Assembly (NCBI GenBank): GCA_016788205.1
Contig: JAEUTA010000025.1
Location: 186,001 to 250,000, forward strand
Direction of reading: 5' to 3'
Origin: Flavobacteriales bacterium
GTDB lineage: Bacteria; Bacteroidota; Bacteroidia; Flavobacteriales_F; PHOS-HE28
Length of the DNA stretch: 64,000 nucleotides
Shown: piece by piece, positions 2,595 through 9,300 of the stretch
How the letters are laid out: the number at the start of each line of letters is the position of its first letter
Position numbering within the stretch: position 1 is the stretch's first letter
Program-made: the position numbers and the translations under genes
Notes under the pieces: generated by a model
The model's input: the letters and a program-made list of their open reading frames with translations, nothing else
The model's database searches: none
Told to the model about the DNA's origin: nothing

Positions 2595-3062
2595 TCACTT
2601 GAGCACCTCCGCCAATTCGATCAGGTTCCCCCAGGGGTCGGCGAAGAAACCCAGGCGTTTGCCGATGACCGATAGGTCGAAGGCTTCGCCGACCGGATCA
2701 ACGCCCCGACGTTTCAGTTCGGCGAGCGTATCGTCCACGCTCGCCACATCCAGGCAGAAGTGGTGGTACCCAGCCGGGTGCAGGCTTTCGTTCAGGTCCT
2801 TGTAGTCGGGTGCGAGAGCGGGATCGCCGCCGCCAAGCAGCTCGATCCAGAAGTTGTCGTCGTTCGGTGGCGCGAGGTAGGCGAGTTGCAGCTCACCAAA
2901 GGGCCACTCGTGTACCACGCGGAAGTCAAGCTTCTCCACGTACCACTGCTTGCTGGCTTCGAAGTCGGGTACGCGCACCGCGACGTGTGCGCCGCGTAGG
3001 TTGCTGAAGGGGCTGTTCGGGTTCTTGGCGGGAATGTGGATGATGGGTCGTTGCGTAGGCAT
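2595..3062 (-). CDS. VOC-superfamily (glyoxalase/bleomycin-resistance-like) protein
   Basis: This 155-residue cytoplasmic protein carries one vicinal-oxygen-chelate domain: GAHVAVRVPDFEASKQWYVE near the start, the His-containing YHHFCLDVASVDD in the middle, and FADPWGNLIELAEVL at the end. The paired strands fit a metal-dependent lyase, isomerase or dioxygenase; the substrate cannot be read from the sequence. A longer frame from a GTG at 3113 is possible. I prefer the ATG at 3062 because a promoter with a -7 element and an AraC-type operator lies at 3083-3149, which would sit inside or at the start of the longer version. The shared operator ties it to the aldehyde-reductase operon at 3233-5283. 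Confidence 0.88.
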   Translation of the reverse strand: MPTQRPIIHIPAKNPNSPFSNLRGAHVAVRVPDFEASKQWYVEKLDFRVVHEWPFGELQLAYLAPPNDDNFWIELLGGGDPALAPDYKDLNESLHPAGYHHFCLDVASVDDTLAELKRRGVDPVGEAFDLSVIGKRLGFFADPWGNLIELAEVLK

Positions 3063-3082: not shown

Positions 3083-3149
3083 CAAAGAGAGCGGGGTGAG
3101 GAGGAAAGCTCACATGCGTAACGCGCCATTGTACTTGCCGGACGCGCCA
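3083..3149 (-). promoter_or_regulatory. Promoter with AraC-type direct-repeat operator upstream of the VOC gene
   Basis: Read on the minus strand, two copies of TGGCGCG (3149-3143 and 3128-3122) are repeated with a 21-base period, two helical turns, as expected for an AraC-family dimer. The proximal copy ends 32 bases before TCTCTTTG (3090-3083), a 7/8 match to the Bacteroidota -7 element. The same arrangement with identical distances is found before the alcohol dehydrogenase gene (5289-5355). Binding by the AraC-type protein at 3233 is inferred. Confidence 0.65.
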
Positions 3150-3232
3150 CGCGTGCTTTCGCCGCGCATCGAAAGGGATCTCACATCATCCTTGGGCGAT
3201 CGCGTCACACGGTTCGATCGAACGGTGCCACT

Positions 3233-4231
3233 TCAGGCGACCGCACGGTGCTGCATGCGCCATTCCCCCGGCGTAACACCTTCCCAGCTGTTGAACGCAC
3301 GGAAGAAGGAGTTGGCATCCTCATAACCGAGCAGGTAGGCCGTCTCGTTCAACTCCATGGCCTGGCTCAGGTAGTGGTGCGCCAGTTCACGTCGGGTTCC
3401 CTCAACCACGTACTGGAAGGTGATTTCCTCATCGGCGAGTTTGCGCTGGAGGGAACGCGGGCTGAGTCCGAGTTCGCCCGCGACATCCTTCAGGCTGGGC
3501 CGTTTGCCGGCGAGGGAGCGTTGCAATACCTGCTTAACCCGCGTGGCGATGTCGACGGGTAGCTTCTTCGCGGCGAGTTCAGAATCCAATTGCGCACCGA
3601 CGAGTGCGAGCAGTTCCGCGTTGTGCGTGGTGAATGGCAGGGCCAGGTCCACCGTGCGGAAGATGAGGGCATTGCGTTCCGCTTTGAATTTCACGCGGCA
3701 GCCGAAGTGCTTCTCCAGCATGTCGCGGTGTTTCATGCCGCGCCGCAGGTCGAGGCGAACGGCACTGAGGCGCCCTTCGGTACCGCGGCGCCCGATGGCG
3801 AAGATCCACGCGAGGCAATTGTCCACAAGCACATCAGGCTCGTTCTCGGTGGCTTCGGTGAAGACGAACTCCACGGCGGTGTCCGCGCCTTCGCGATGCA
3901 GGTGGATGTGCTCCGGACATACGAGCTGTTTGTAACGGCCCATGCGTTCCACGGCGTCCCCGAAGGTCCTGCTGCACACGGCGGCGATGGCGGTGGGTTG
4001 CAGGCGCTCCACGCGCATGTCGGATCCCATGGTGATACCGATGGAAGGGTCAACGCTGATCTCGCCAACGGCCCGCCACAGTGCGAAGAGCTCGGCGGTG
4101 GAGACGGTGATCTTCTCCTGTTCGAAGAAGCTGGGGGACAGACCGGCCTGACGGAGCAACGGATCGAGCGCGATCCTCTGTTCTTTCAGTCGACGGCCCA
4201 GTTCACTGCCGATGCGGAAGCGGTCGGTCAT
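3233..4231 (-). CDS. AraC-family transcriptional regulator (arabinose_bd-type N-terminus)
   Basis: This 332-residue regulator has an N-terminal ligand-binding region of the type seen in OruR-like regulators (about residues 20-210; LRQAGLSPSFFEQ, CRVKFKAERNALIFRTVDLA). A C-terminal AraC double helix-turn-helix spans about residues 245-328 (LKDVAGELGLSPRSLQRKL, then TAYLLGYEDANSFFRAFNSW). Its ATG overlaps the stop of the upstream dehydrogenase gene by 4 bases, so the two are co-transcribed and probably translationally coupled. Matching 21-bp-spaced direct repeats before the VOC gene and before the dehydrogenase operon suggest it controls both, including its own operon. An aldehyde or related electrophile is a reasonable guess for the inducer, from the target genes. 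Confidence 0.92.
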   Translation of the reverse strand: MTDRFRIGSELGRRLKEQRIALDPLLRQAGLSPSFFEQEKITVSTAELFALWRAVGEISVDPSIGITMGSDMRVERLQPTAIAAVCSRTFGDAVERMGRYKQLVCPEHIHLHREGADTAVEFVFTEATENEPDVLVDNCLAWIFAIGRRGTEGRLSAVRLDLRRGMKHRDMLEKHFGCRVKFKAERNALIFRTVDLALPFTTHNAELLALVGAQLDSELAAKKLPVDIATRVKQVLQRSLAGKRPSLKDVAGELGLSPRSLQRKLADEEITFQYVVEGTRRELAHHYLSQAMELNETAYLLGYEDANSFFRAFNSWEGVTPGEWRMQHRAVA

Positions 4232-5283
4232 TCCTGCAAAGTTGCCATGTCAATGACGAACCGGTAATGTACATCTTGCTTGATCATGCGTTCCCACGCC
4301 TCGTTGATCTGATCCATGCGGATCATCTCGATCTCGGAGGTGATGCCATGCTCAGCGCAGAAGTCCAGCATCTCCTGTGTTTCGGCGATGCTGCCGATGC
4401 CCGAGCCCGCGAAGCTGCGGCGCTGACCGAGCAGGCTGAAGGCGCTGACGGGCAGCGGATGCTCGGGCGCACCCACGAGCGTGAGCGTGCCGTTGAGCTT
4501 GATCAGTTGCAGGTAGGCGTTGATGTCGTGTTGTGCGGACACGCAATCCAGTATGAAGTCGAAGCTGCTGCGGTGTTGCTTCATGGCCTCGGCATCGGTG
4601 CTCACCACCACTTCGTTCGCGCCGAGCTTCAGGCCATCAGCGACTTTCTTCGGTGAAGTGGTGAATAGCACCACGTGCGCACCGAACGCCCTGGCGAATT
4701 TCACGCCCATATGCCCCAAGCCACCGAGGCCAACGATACCCACCTTCATACCGGGTCCCACCTTCCAATGGCGCAGTGGTGAGTACGTTGTGATACCGGC
4801 GCACAGCAGTGGTGCGGCGGAGGCGAGGTCAAGGCCCGCTGGTACGCGCAGCACGAACGCCTCATCCACCACGATGCTGCTGCTGTAGCCGCCGAGGGTG
4901 TGCGTGTTCAGGTGTCCGTCCAGGCTGTTGTAGGTATACGTTGCACCGTTGGTGCAGTAGTTCTCCAAACCTTGCTGGCAGCTGGGGCAGGTACGGCAGC
5001 TATCCACCATGCAGCCCACCGCGCTCGTGTCGCCCACCTTGAACTTGGTCACGCCCGCACCCACGCGGGTGACGCGCCCCACGATCTCGTGACCGGGGAC
5101 ACAGGGGTACTTGGCCGGTCCCCATTCGCTGCGTGCAGTGTGGATATCGCTGTGACACACACCACAATAGAGGATCTCCATCTCAACGTCATGCGCGCCC
5201 GGTTCCCGGCGTTGGATGGGCGTGAACGTAAGGGAGGTGGTGGAAGAATGTGCCGCGTAGGCTTTGGCGTTGTTGGTCTTCAT
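4228..5283 (-). CDS. Zinc-dependent NAD(P) alcohol dehydrogenase / aldehyde reductase, YahK-like
   Basis: This 351-residue medium-chain dehydrogenase of the cinnamyl-alcohol/YahK branch most likely reduces aldehydes with NADPH in the cytoplasm. Catalytic zinc ligands are seen in YCGVCHSDIHTARSEWG and PGHEIVGRV. Four structural-zinc cysteines lie in CMVDSCRTCPSCQQGLENYC, and the nucleotide-binding glycines in GIVGLGGLGHMGVKFA. The N-terminal pattern ITRREPG/IQRREPGAHDV followed by the zinc site resembles E. coli YahK. It is the first gene of an operon with the AraC-type regulator (4-base overlap). The promoter lies 6-72 bases upstream. Substrate range is not determinable. Confidence 0.94.
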   Translation of the reverse strand: MKTNNAKAYAAHSSTTSLTFTPIQRREPGAHDVEMEILYCGVCHSDIHTARSEWGPAKYPCVPGHEIVGRVTRVGAGVTKFKVGDTSAVGCMVDSCRTCPSCQQGLENYCTNGATYTYNSLDGHLNTHTLGGYSSSIVVDEAFVLRVPAGLDLASAAPLLCAGITTYSPLRHWKVGPGMKVGIVGLGGLGHMGVKFARAFGAHVVLFTTSPKKVADGLKLGANEVVVSTDAEAMKQHRSSFDFILDCVSAQHDINAYLQLIKLNGTLTLVGAPEHPLPVSAFSLLGQRRSFAGSGIGSIAETQEMLDFCAEHGITSEIEMIRMDQINEAWERMIKQDVHYRFVIDMATLQE

Positions 5284-5288
5284 CCGTA

Positions 5289-5355
5289 CAAAGGACGGGA
5301 TGGTAGGTCAGGCTTGTATATGCGGAACGCGCCAATGTACTCGCACATCGCGCCA
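5289..5355 (-). promoter_or_regulatory. Promoter with AraC-type direct-repeat operator upstream of the dehydrogenase-araC operon
   Basis: On the minus strand TGGCGCG occurs at 5355-5349 and 5334-5328, a 21-base period. The proximal copy is 32 bases upstream of GTCCTTTG (5296-5289), a -7-like element 5 bases before the ATG. The 26 bases at 5319-5344 match 3113-3138 at 22 positions. Sequence and spacing both match the site before the VOC gene. Confidence 0.65.
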
Positions 5356-5463: not shown

Positions 5464-8400
5464 ATGAAAGAAACGTGTGCGTTGCTGAGGCTTTTCATGT
5501 GTTCTCTCGTGGTGGTCTGTGCGCAGGATTCGTTCGCGGCGACCTACTACGCGCGCGCCAACGGCGCTTGGAACGTGGCAAGTACGTGGAGCATCATCGG
5601 CTACTCCGGCGCGGCTGCGGCCACTACTCCGGGGTCAGCCCCGGGTGATATAGTACTGATCGGTGGGCGGCAGATAACGGTGACCACCACACCGGCCAAT
5701 GCGCTGGTGTCCATTACCCTGAACCATCTGGGGGCAGCAGGTACCACCCGGCTGGATATCAACACTGCTGGCGTCGTGCTCACATGCAATGCCTTCACCA
5801 TGCTGGACAACAACCTGGACCAGCACATGGAACTTGAGGTCTCCAGCAGCGCAAGACTTCAGGTGAACGGCAACTTCGCGGTAACCCGGGGCACGAGCAA
5901 CGCAAGGGATAAACGCATGCTGGTCTATGTGCGCAATACGGCACGTGTCAATGTCACCGGTACGTTCACCTATACCTACAACAGGTCCGGGGGCGAGAAT
6001 GAGCAGGAGATCCGCCTGGACGACAGCGCTCAACTCAACGTTACGGGAGCGTTCAGCATCGCCATGGGGAATTCCAGCCAGGGTAACGACCAGTTCAACT
6101 TCCAGATGAACGGTAGCTCTTTGGTCTCGGCGGGTAGCACCACGACCATGACGGTGAACAGTGCCGACGGCGACGACATGAATCTGGACCTGAATGGTGG
6201 AACGTTCTCCAGCACAGGCCTCATGACCTTGCGGGTCGCCAATGGCTCCAACAACGCCTGCGTCTTCGATACGGAGATCGATGGAGCGACGATCAATGCC
6301 AATGCTGGATTGACCCTGGACCAAGCCGGCGGCACCGGTGCATTCGACTTCATGCTGAACGCGAACTCGACCGCCGCCGCGGCCGTGCTCAATGTTACCG
6401 GTAACCTTACTGTGAACCATACGTCCGGGGGCGATCAGACGATCCAGACGAACACGAATAGTACGGTGACCGTGACGGGCAACATGCCGATGACCTTCAC
6501 CGAAAGCGCTACGCGTACCCAAGTGCTTGACATGAACGGAGGCACCTTCACGGTGACCGGCAACCTCACCAACACGATAAGCAGTGGTGTGAACCATCGG
6601 TTCGATATCCTGCTCGATGGCGCGGCGCGCTTCAATGTGAACAACGATGTGACCATCGGTCAGGGAGGCAGTGCCATGCGCCTATTCCTGAACGCTACGA
6701 ACGGAAGCACCGCTGAATTCAACGTGGGACGGGACTTCACCATCAATCACGCCAATGCCGCGACCCACGTGGATGTGGAACAATACGGTTCGTCGCGACT
6801 TACCACAGGCCGGGACATGATCCTGAACAACCCGGCACAGAACGGTGATCGCATGATCCTGCGCATGTATGGATCCAGCACCTTGGTGGTGACGCGTGAT
6901 CTCACCATGAGCCTTACCGGTGGTAACCCGAACAGCGACGACCGCATCGGCATCGAACAGAACAGCGGTACGGTCAACGTGGGCGGCAACGTCTCTTACA
7001 ACCGGACGGCAGGAGATGACATCTTCTGGAACATGGGCAACGGCACGGCCAGCATCGGCGGCAACTTCACGTTCACCAGTGGAACGGGCGACGATACATA
7101 CCTGGTCCTGAACGGATCGAGCTCCATGACGATCATAGGCAACCTCATGTTCGACCTGAACAGTGGCGATCTCGGCTACCTATACTTGAACGAAGGGTCG
7201 GGTAGCGGAGCCTCGCTGGCCGTTGGTGGTTCGCTCACGATAGATCACGAGACGCAGGCCGGGGATGCCACCATCGAGCTCGACAATGGCAGTTCCCTGT
7301 CGGTAGGCACAACGCTGACATGGGACATGGACGCCACCAACAACGCCAAGGCCAGGTTCCTTATCAGCAATGATGCGAACACGGTGCAAGTGGGCACAAA
7401 CATGGTGTTGCAACAACTTTCCGGCGGCAGCAACAACGACTTCGACTTCGACCAGCAGGGTGGCACCGTTACGGTAGGTGGGAGCGGCACCTTCCGGCTC
7501 GCTTCGGGTACCTCTGGTGACTTCAACATGCGGCTGCGCAATACCAGCACGCTGAATATCAACGGCAGCGCTGCATTCCAATTCTCCGGTGGTGATGACT
7601 ATAACTGGCGCGTGGAGGACAACAGCACCGTTGTGATCGGTGGCAACGCGACCTACCAACAGACCGGCGGTGACGACTTCACGGGAAGTGTGAACAACAA
7701 CAGTTCCATGACGGTTGGTGGGCACATGACGTTCCAGCACACTGGCGGTGATGACTTCCTCTTCACCACGAACAACAACAATGCGCTGCTGGTGGTGAAC
7801 GGGAGTTTGATCATGCAGGATACACAGGGCGGTTCCACCATCACAGAGCTGCAACTGGACAATGCAAGCACTACGCGCGTTCTGGGTGATATACAGATGA
7901 CGGCGACGGCATCCGGCGAAGTCCTCATCGATATGAACAACTCGGCGTACTTGAGGATCGCTGGTTCGTTCCTGCGCAGTGCCACGCCCAGTCGTTTCGG
8001 AACGCTGACCATGACGAACGCCGCAACGCTCGAATACAACGGCACACTGAATACGCAGGTGATGGCCGCGAATGCGGGAAGTGGAACGGATGGTTTCACC
8101 TTCACCCGTGTAGTGGTGAACAATACGTACGGTACCTCGCCCCAGCTTACCACGGAAGGAGTGACCACCATCAACGAGTCGCTCACGCTCACACGTGGCA
8201 TCGTGTCCACGCTGGCGGCCCGCATGGTGGTGATGGCGCACAACTCCACGGCGACCGGCGGGAACGTGAACAGCTACATCGACGGTCCGATGAAGAAGAT
8301 CGGCAACGACGCGTTCGTATTCCCATTGGGGAATGGTGGGCGCTGGGCACGCCTGGGCATGGAGAACCTGAATTCCTTCGGGAATACCACGGAGATGGTG

Positions 8401-9300
8401 GCCGAGTTCGTGAAGCAGCCCTCGCCTAACAATGGCCCGACCTATTACGGCACAGGTATCCATCACGTGAGCTACATCGAGTACTGGAAGTTGGATCGTG
8501 TGCTCGACGCCGGCAACGATGCCAGTACCCAGGTACGCTTGTATTGGGAACTGGCGTCAGCCAGCGGCATAACGCTCAACTCGGACCTGCGCGTGGCACA
8601 ATTCCGCACGAGCACGACCAAGTGGGAGAACCATGGTGGCAGTGCCACTGGAGGCACATCGGGCAGCGTGCTCAGCACGACGGCGGTCTCCAGTTTCGGC
8701 AACCTGTCATTCGGTAGCTCGGGAGGTACCAATCCGTTGCCGGTTGAACAGCTTTCGTTCAACGCCTGGGCCGCAAATGCGGTGGTGGATATCGCGTGGA
8801 GCACGGCGTCCGAGTCGAATAGCGACCATTTCGAAGTGGAGGTAACGCGCGATGGGACCATTTTCCGTTCCGTTGGAAGGGTAGCGGCGGCAGGCTACTC
8901 ACAGGCGAACTTGAATTACACGCTGCGCGATGAACTTCCATTCGAAGGCACATCGTACTACCGCCTGAAACAGGTCGATCTGGATGGGTCCGTCACCTTC
9001 TCGGATATGGTCGCCGTGCAATTCGATCCGTACGATGCAAGAGGCGCGTTGATACCTTATCCGAACCCGTCCAGCGGTATGCTGAACGTGAAGCCGTTCG
9101 CTCAAGAGGGCGTGTTCAGTGTGGAGGTCATGGATGCCACGGGTCGACTCGCGTTGCGTGCGCAGCGAGCGATGAACGGTATCGAGGCGATGCCGTTGGA
9201 TGCGTCAACACTGCCGGACGGTCGCTACATCGTGGTGGTCACCCGCATGAACGGGGAGCGCAGCGCTGCGCCTTGGGTCAAGGTCGGGTCGAGCGAGTAG
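5464..9300 (+). CDS. Large secreted beta-solenoid surface protein with T9SS sorting domain
   Basis: This 1278-residue exported protein starts at the ATG that opens a signal peptide (RLFMCSLVVVCAQDSFA). A longer frame upstream only overlaps the dehydrogenase on the other strand. After a conserved N-terminal block (YYARANGAWNVASTWS), most of the chain is a run of short Gly/Asn/Thr-rich repeats such as VTGNLTVNHTSGGD, predicted to form a right-handed beta-helix. A fibronectin-like region (VDIAWSTASESNSDHFEVE) follows, then a T9SS type A sorting domain (IPYPNPSSGMLNVKPF to LPDGRYIVVV). Secretion across the outer membrane by T9SS is therefore expected. The role is unknown; adhesion or matrix formation is only a guess. 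Confidence 0.85.
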   Translation: MKETCALLRLFMCSLVVVCAQDSFAATYYARANGAWNVASTWSIIGYSGAAAATTPGSAPGDIVLIGGRQITVTTTPANALVSITLNHLGAAGTTRLDINTAGVVLTCNAFTMLDNNLDQHMELEVSSSARLQVNGNFAVTRGTSNARDKRMLVYVRNTARVNVTGTFTYTYNRSGGENEQEIRLDDSAQLNVTGAFSIAMGNSSQGNDQFNFQMNGSSLVSAGSTTTMTVNSADGDDMNLDLNGGTFSSTGLMTLRVANGSNNACVFDTEIDGATINANAGLTLDQAGGTGAFDFMLNANSTAAAAVLNVTGNLTVNHTSGGDQTIQTNTNSTVTVTGNMPMTFTESATRTQVLDMNGGTFTVTGNLTNTISSGVNHRFDILLDGAARFNVNNDVTIGQGGSAMRLFLNATNGSTAEFNVGRDFTINHANAATHVDVEQYGSSRLTTGRDMILNNPAQNGDRMILRMYGSSTLVVTRDLTMSLTGGNPNSDDRIGIEQNSGTVNVGGNVSYNRTAGDDIFWNMGNGTASIGGNFTFTSGTGDDTYLVLNGSSSMTIIGNLMFDLNSGDLGYLYLNEGSGSGASLAVGGSLTIDHETQAGDATIELDNGSSLSVGTTLTWDMDATNNAKARFLISNDANTVQVGTNMVLQQLSGGSNNDFDFDQQGGTVTVGGSGTFRLASGTSGDFNMRLRNTSTLNINGSAAFQFSGGDDYNWRVEDNSTVVIGGNATYQQTGGDDFTGSVNNNSSMTVGGHMTFQHTGGDDFLFTTNNNNALLVVNGSLIMQDTQGGSTITELQLDNASTTRVLGDIQMTATASGEVLIDMNNSAYLRIAGSFLRSATPSRFGTLTMTNAATLEYNGTLNTQVMAANAGSGTDGFTFTRVVVNNTYGTSPQLTTEGVTTINESLTLTRGIVSTLAARMVVMAHNSTATGGNVNSYIDGPMKKIGNDAFVFPLGNGGRWARLGMENLNSFGNTTEMVAEFVKQPSPNNGPTYYGTGIHHVSYIEYWKLDRVLDAGNDASTQVRLYWELASASGITLNSDLRVAQFRTSTTKWENHGGSATGGTSGSVLSTTAVSSFGNLSFGSSGGTNPLPVEQLSFNAWAANAVVDIAWSTASESNSDHFEVEVTRDGTIFRSVGRVAAAGYSQANLNYTLRDELPFEGTSYYRLKQVDLDGSVTFSDMVAVQFDPYDARGALIPYPNPSSGMLNVKPFAQEGVFSVEVMDATGRLALRAQRAMNGIEAMPLDASTLPDGRYIVVVTRMNGERSAAPWVKVGSSE
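7560..7805 (+). repeat. Tandem 75-bp coding repeats of the beta-solenoid
   Basis: Within the large T9SS protein, units carrying GGDDYNW, GGDDFTG and GGDDFLF recur at about 75-base intervals (near 7592, 7666 and 7741). Each is followed by NNST/NNSS-type turns and a VxGGxxTxQ strand. The 25-residue period fits one turn of a beta-helix. The copies are diverged, so this is an old amplification. Confidence 0.7.

Follow-up and report, generated by a model that had tools for sequence, protein, structure and literature searches.

Several described regulators of the AraC/XylS family provide a frame for the element reported here. XylS of Pseudomonas putida acts at the Pm promoter through two direct repeats, in each of which a box A lies 5' of a box B; the boxes are read by the two helix–turn–helix (HTH) motifs of each monomer (PMC5481539). 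ArgR of Pseudomonas aeruginosa, a further member of the family, recognizes TGTCGCN6GNAA in tandem with 5 bp between the copies (PMC10963909), which results in a period of 21 bp. Finally, the AraC-type regulator YqhC of Escherichia coli binds the promoter of the yqhD-dkgA operon, in which an aldehyde reductase, YqhD, is encoded, and also appears to influence its own expression (PMC8262776). The locus analyzed here lies in a stretch of 64,000 nucleotides (hereafter the window), in which two neighboring promoters, 2.2 kb apart, carry exact TGGCGCG-N14-TGGCGCG repeats on the minus strand (3122–3149 and 5328–5355). The genes and elements concerned are:

2595–3062, minus strand: VOC gene (glyoxalase/bleomycin-resistance superfamily), ATG at 3062 preferred
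3083–3087, minus strand: CTTTG of the VOC promoter −7 element, 34 bp after the proximal TGGCGCG
3112–3128, minus strand: proximal unit of the VOC promoter, TGGCGCGTTACGCATGT, 21 bp from the distal unit
3133–3149, minus strand: distal unit of the VOC promoter, TGGCGCGTCCGGCAAGT, with box A TGGCGCG and box B GCAAGT
3233–4231, minus strand: gene of the AraC-family regulator, with PF12625 N-terminal domain and PF12833 two-HTH domain
4228–5283, minus strand: gene of a zinc-dependent alcohol/aldehyde dehydrogenase (ADH_N, ADH_zinc_N)
5289–5293, minus strand: CTTTG of the dehydrogenase-araC promoter −7 element, start codon 5 nt further on
5318–5334, minus strand: proximal unit of the dehydrogenase-araC promoter, TGGCGCGTTCCGCATAT
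5339–5355, minus strand: distal unit of the dehydrogenase-araC promoter, TGGCGCGATGTGCGAGT

As at Pm, two-box direct repeats adjoin the promoter core, and XylS is an activator. The XylS repeats also have a period of 21 bp. In contrast, the XylS boxes TGCA and GGTA form 15-bp repeats (TGCA-N6-GGTA), whereas TGGCRYG and GCNAGT form 17-bp units here, and the present system combines a putative Bacteroidota −33/−7 promoter with a regulator whose N-terminal domain is PF12625. The ArgR box shares the 21-bp tandem period and a box A close to TGGCGC, but its box B is different and shifted, and ArgR controls arginine metabolism instead of oxidoreductases. YqhC is a close functional parallel, although its N-terminal domain is AraC_N-type and not PF12625. 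Judged from sequence, the geometry is that of known AraC/XylS operators, whereas sequence, regulator subfamily, and promoter class differ. A description of this operator was not found in the literature searched, which covered few subscription papers, so that novelty is only weakly indicated.

Regarding the regulator, PF12625 was detected as its N-terminal ligand-binding domain (1.6e-28, residues 22–199), followed by a C-terminal HTH_18 domain (PF12833; 1.8e-15, above the cut-off). The best NCBIfam matches were QhpR (163.8 of 250 bits), GliR (113.3 of 570 bits), and CypR (67.5 of 500 bits); since every match remained under its cut-off, the regulator is none of these. A paper on QhpR was not found in the literature searched, the coverage of which was limited. 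The nearest solved structures are VirS (8rcx) and 5chh, with 8rcx being the nearest, and an AlphaFold2 model displays the two HTH helix pairs with a block-mean pLDDT of ~75–90; outside the DNA-binding domain (residues ~228–332), the model is unreliable and of insufficient quality for fold searches (mean pLDDT 54.5). The start of araC overlaps the stop of the dehydrogenase gene by 4 bp, like a co-translated pair. For the dehydrogenase, the best NCBIfam match is the aldehyde reductase Ahr (321.3 of 470 bits, under the cut-off). The VOC product reaches the superfamily PF00903 but not the cut-off for glyoxalase I (GloA, 30.5 of 165 bits, NCBIfam). Its gene is present in the own genome only and absent from the 44 other genomes of the genus sample, and the ATG at 3062 is preferred as its start because a GTG at 3113 falls inside the promoter. 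Divergent to the dehydrogenase gene, positions 5464–9300 encode a long protein of secreted appearance, which is rich in NVTGN-like repeats and has a tail similar to a type IX secretion sorting domain. The mechanically assigned ORF start at 4900 would extend this protein through the promoter and is certainly incorrect.

An earlier note, made from the letters of this DNA, had reported the two TGGCGCG direct repeats with their 21-base period on the minus strand, and we could confirm both, as well as the 22 matching positions within the best 26 bases that surround the proximal copy. It had also claimed an equal distance of 32 bases to CTTTG; the distance is indeed equal in both promoters but measures 34 bases from the end of the proximal TGGCGCG. 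Likewise, the label TAnnTTTG is only half appropriate, as both promoters have CTTTG but lack the TA upstream of it. Unnamed in that note was a second box, GCNNGT, located four bases 3' of TGGCGCG in both units. The repeat unit consequently comprises 17 bp (box A TGGCGCG, N4, box B GCNNGT), and a further N4 leads to the 21-bp period. In the proximal unit of the dehydrogenase promoter, box B reads GCATAT, one base off GCNNGT. Read along the minus strand, the sequence is TGGCGCGTCCGGCAAGTACAA TGGCGCGTTACGCATGTGAGC for the VOC promoter and TGGCGCGATGTGCGAGTACAT TGGCGCGTTCCGCATATACAA for the dehydrogenase promoter. Of their 38 positions, the two 38-mers share 30. When 110-bp segments of the window were paired at random 19,954 times, no pair reached this value in an ungapped 38-mer match (best match: 28).

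Searching the own genome (3.97 Mb; G000) with the 14-base core TGGCGCG-N14-TGGCGCG revealed two exact matches. As the reversed control pattern also matched twice, the core was rejected as sole evidence, and with up to three mismatches allowed, the control even gave more matches (732 + 734) than the real pattern (638 + 619). The extended pattern, however, was found at the two known sites only (control: 0), and a chance origin of the extended site is excluded. The signal is carried by the second box GCNNGT, the core pattern alone being insignificant in the genome. A third regulon member was not found in this genome, with all core candidates of one or two mismatches (L003–L030) scoring ≤12.1 in the tandem matrix introduced below.

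To relatives within the genus, 45 genomes including G000 were available. An araC orthologue is present in three of them, namely G000, G004 (68% identity; contig matching UBA7690), and G018 (67%), and in none of the remaining genomes of a 395-genome class sample; the regulator is accessory in the genus. With the 38-base pattern at up to three mismatches, we obtained two matches each in G000 and G004, all of them at up to one mismatch, and a single three-mismatch match in G007, which was taken as chance. A matrix search and the composite pattern given below added a third site in G004 and one in G018, and site and araC orthologue are confined to the same three of the 45 genomes. The G004 sites precede (a) an operon of a short-chain dehydrogenase/reductase (SDR) and an aldo/keto reductase (AKR), (b) a 142-aa gene of unknown function followed by araC, and (c) the dehydrogenase gene (87% identical); sites a and c no longer adjoin araC. 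In G018, the site precedes a hexapeptide acyltransferase gene, accompanied by an alpha/beta hydrolase and a cyclophilin-like gene, and a probable single proximal unit, TGGCGCATACTGCAAGT, lies upstream of araC, 33 bp before CTTTG. G044 possesses the dehydrogenase (74%), but neither the araC orthologue nor the site.

Across the three species, the gap to CTTTG is exactly 34 bp in all six full sites. Mean pairwise identity of the six promoters amounts to 0.86 for the proximal and 0.70 for the distal unit, compared to 0.33 for the 24-bp spacer and 0.27 for the upstream sequence. The composite GGCGCG-N4-GCAAGT-N24-CTTTG occurs three times without mismatch in the 45 genomes, always in araC-bearing genomes and within ~5 kb of araC; a one-mismatch match on contig C73 of G004, antisense inside an OmpA-like gene, was attributed to chance. 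The distal unit is degraded in the dehydrogenase promoter of G004 and in the G018 promoter, so that strict tandem occupancy may be unnecessary. As a side observation, the 142-aa gene of G004 (L041:3556–3984), located between the putative operator and araC and without a Pfam match, begins nearly like araC itself (ATGACCGACCGCTT and MTDRFR), as though it had entered directly behind the initial araC codons and duplicated its target.

The earlier note had interpreted the repeat as an AraC dimer site of a small, autoregulated regulon. Comparative evidence supports this interpretation: the site tracks the araC orthologue (3 of 45 genomes), it precedes an araC operon, a dehydrogenase gene, and an SDR-AKR operon in a second species, and the loci of distant homologues carry the same tandem site. 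Two of the outcomes named in the note as refuting were not observed, as the extended site is not scattered at random across the genome and is conserved in the araC-bearing relatives of the genus. We therefore propose, with a probability of roughly 0.86, that the PF12625-type AraC regulator (3233–4231) has its operator in the 38-bp element, from which it would activate a small regulon for detoxification together with its own operon. Sequence directly establishes the site, the spacing, the conservation, and the association with the regulator. Of the further parts, predicted binding of the regulator to the 38-bp site is well supported by sequence, and the same applies to the predicted promoter position of the site.

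According to the proposed mechanism, each 17-bp unit would be occupied by one monomer, with one HTH motif contacting box A (TGGCGCG) and the other box B (GCNNGT). A pair of monomers would bind in tandem, 21 bp or two helical turns apart. The proximal subunit would thereby be placed beside the −33/−35 region of a weak promoter (TTTG without TA), where the ligand-bound regulator would most likely activate by direct contact with RNA polymerase. In G000, the regulator would turn on the VOC-family enzyme and the aldehyde-reductase-like dehydrogenase, and also itself, since araC would be transcribed together with the dehydrogenase gene. Tandem binding and activation are deduced by analogy to XylS-type systems (PMC5481539), whereas autoregulation is suggested by co-transcription in G000 and, in G004, by the site that precedes the araC operon. 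A role in the detoxification of carbonyls or xenobiotics is suggested by the gene content, i.e., an aldehyde-reductase-like dehydrogenase, SDR, AKR, VOC, and efflux genes, from which an aldehyde, another electrophile or reactive carbonyl, or a xenobiotic appears plausible as signal. The G018 targets (hexapeptide acyltransferase, alpha/beta hydrolase, and cyclophilin-like protein) have no obvious fit to aldehydes.

The promoter position derives from Flavobacterium psychrophilum, in which TAnnTTTG was mapped to −12 to −5 (PMC9723704). Using this register with predicted start sites, the proximal unit occupies ~−50 to −44 (box A) and ~−39 to −34 (box B) and thus adjoins the −33/−35 region, with the distal unit at ~−71 to −55. 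In all promoters of the comparison, the −7 box contains TTTG and lacks the TA of TAnnTTTG, the −7 consensus of Bacteroidota primary-sigma promoters. With the site beside −33/−35 and the −7 element being weak, activation is most likely. Alternatively, the regulator could bind the site and repress, blocking the promoter until a ligand releases it; AraC itself can repress, the site adjoins the core promoter, and autoregulation would suit a repressor, too. We consider this unlikely, as the operator lies wholly upstream of −33/−35, at a constant distance of 34 bp to −7, and leaves the core uncovered, as −7 elements without the consensus TA are expected of activator-dependent promoters, and as the comparable placement at XylS/Pm is activating (PMC5481539).

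Start codons close to the −7 element were a further observation at these promoters. The start codon of the dehydrogenase gene follows TTTG by 5 nt, so its mRNA is probably nearly leaderless. A distance of 5–7 nt was found at four of the six promoters (window 5281–5293; L041:715–724 and 3547–3558; L043:8566–8581), the mRNAs of which would be almost leaderless. In F. psychrophilum, only 5.5% of mRNAs are leaderless (PMC9723704).

Beyond the genus, we analyzed 20 loci of foreign homologues (26–51% identity) from plasmid records and two Bacteroidota genomes, covering Bacillota, Alpha-, Beta-, and Gammaproteobacteria, and other Bacteroidota. A matrix of the 17-bp unit was built from the six genus sites only and scored in tandem at 21 bp. 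Strong 21-bp tandem sites were identified at 16 of the 20 loci, 15 of them in the first stretch taken (best scores 23.0–37.9) plus the Aeromonas site described below. Controls for the first 14 loci consisted of 60 dinucleotide shuffles each, with maxima of 9.4–21.8, and each strong best score exceeded the shuffle maximum of its own locus; for the last six loci, the assessment relied on the score and on comparison with other periods only. Unrelated loci of the own genome, picked for core likeness, scored ≤12.1. The period of 21 stands out in most foreign loci, with L114 also scoring at 22. The tandem matrix revealed no site in the flanks of L103 and L109 and weak sites at L098 and L116.

Where the following gene is annotated, the foreign sites are located 25–163 bp before genes for SDR (several), aldo/keto reductase, NTF2-like protein, oxidoreductase, GST, epimerase/dehydrogenase, or araC, and they mostly precede SDR, aldo/keto-reductase, or RND-efflux genes. 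Their consensus approximates TGGCRYG-N4-GCAAG in the distal and TGGCRYG-N4-GCYAGT in the proximal unit. Recognition helices SxR[ST]LQR and NSFxRAF are common to most of these proteins, which fits the conserved site. The closest foreign regulator (51%) is that of Aeromonas, whose first stretch seemed to be without a site; a whole-plasmid search, however, revealed TGGCGCGTTTTGCAAGTAAATTGGCGCGTTCTGCATAT, 163 bp before an RND efflux operon extending as far as araC. This site lies at record positions 98265–98302 of the conjugative plasmid pS44-1 of Aeromonas salmonicida (L099). With regulator and predicted operator flanking the efflux operon, this arrangement suggests horizontal travel and possible control of efflux. 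As far as predicted sites can tell, conservation spans at least three phyla and is unexpectedly wide.

Such recurrence at AraC homologues of 26–51% identity in several phyla, in the company of no other common regulator, also bears on the idea that the site is recognized by a different regulator of the same genomes, e.g., of the HxlR or LysR type, with the AraC gene as a mere passenger. An HxlR-family gene does adjoin araC in G018, but the two-box tandem architecture at 21 bp is of the AraC/XylS operator type, and we regard this explanation as very improbable. Hardly credible is a recent duplication of a promoter fragment that left a functionless repeat: the two promoters are only 2.2 kb apart, but spacer and flanks match at background level while the units are conserved, boxes and spacing are kept in six promoters of three species, and the motif recurs across phyla.

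For the AraC regulator as reader of the site, a broader generalization can be proposed. We lean towards the view that TGGCRYG-N4-GCNAGT in tandem at 21 bp serves almost universally as operator in a large, hitherto undescribed clade of PF12625 AraC regulators, which would spread horizontally, often on plasmids, together with SDR, aldo/keto-reductase, dehydrogenase, and efflux cassettes. If so, the sensor domain would have diverged to ~30% identity with hardly any change in the recognition code, and targets would be predictable from sequence across phyla, including Bacteroidota with their different promoter type. Many PF12625-type AraC regulators adjoin reductases or efflux pumps without a known site or target, and a conserved, easily searched operator would provide a list of predicted targets and probes for binding assays for each of them. 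Furthermore, the geometry of AraC-type activators seems to work with the unusual −33/−7 promoters of Bacteroidota, and a candidate inducible promoter for this phylum is provided.

In the 395 Bacteroidota genomes, the general pattern matched in four (G000, G726, G598, and G756), two of which (G000 and G726) contain a homologue. The match in G756 is repetitive and was taken as chance. The intergenic site-like sequence of G598 (L138:1501–1538) has no AraC homologue within ~1.5 kb; it is an array of TGGCGCA/TGGCGCG, perhaps of three 21-bp units, before a gene of a metallo-beta-lactamase-fold-like hydrolase. Regarding the AraC-type paralogues of the genus (27–34% identity; L034–L040), the exact site is absent from their loci. 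Near such paralogues, we observed a related tandem element, approximately TGKCRYGAACYGWCAG twice at 21 bp, with the same box A and a different box B (L036:358–395 and 2080–2117; L039:857–894 and 2565–2602; L040:1308–1345). These elements are possibly the paralogues' own operators, in which case they would show how box B specifies the regulator.
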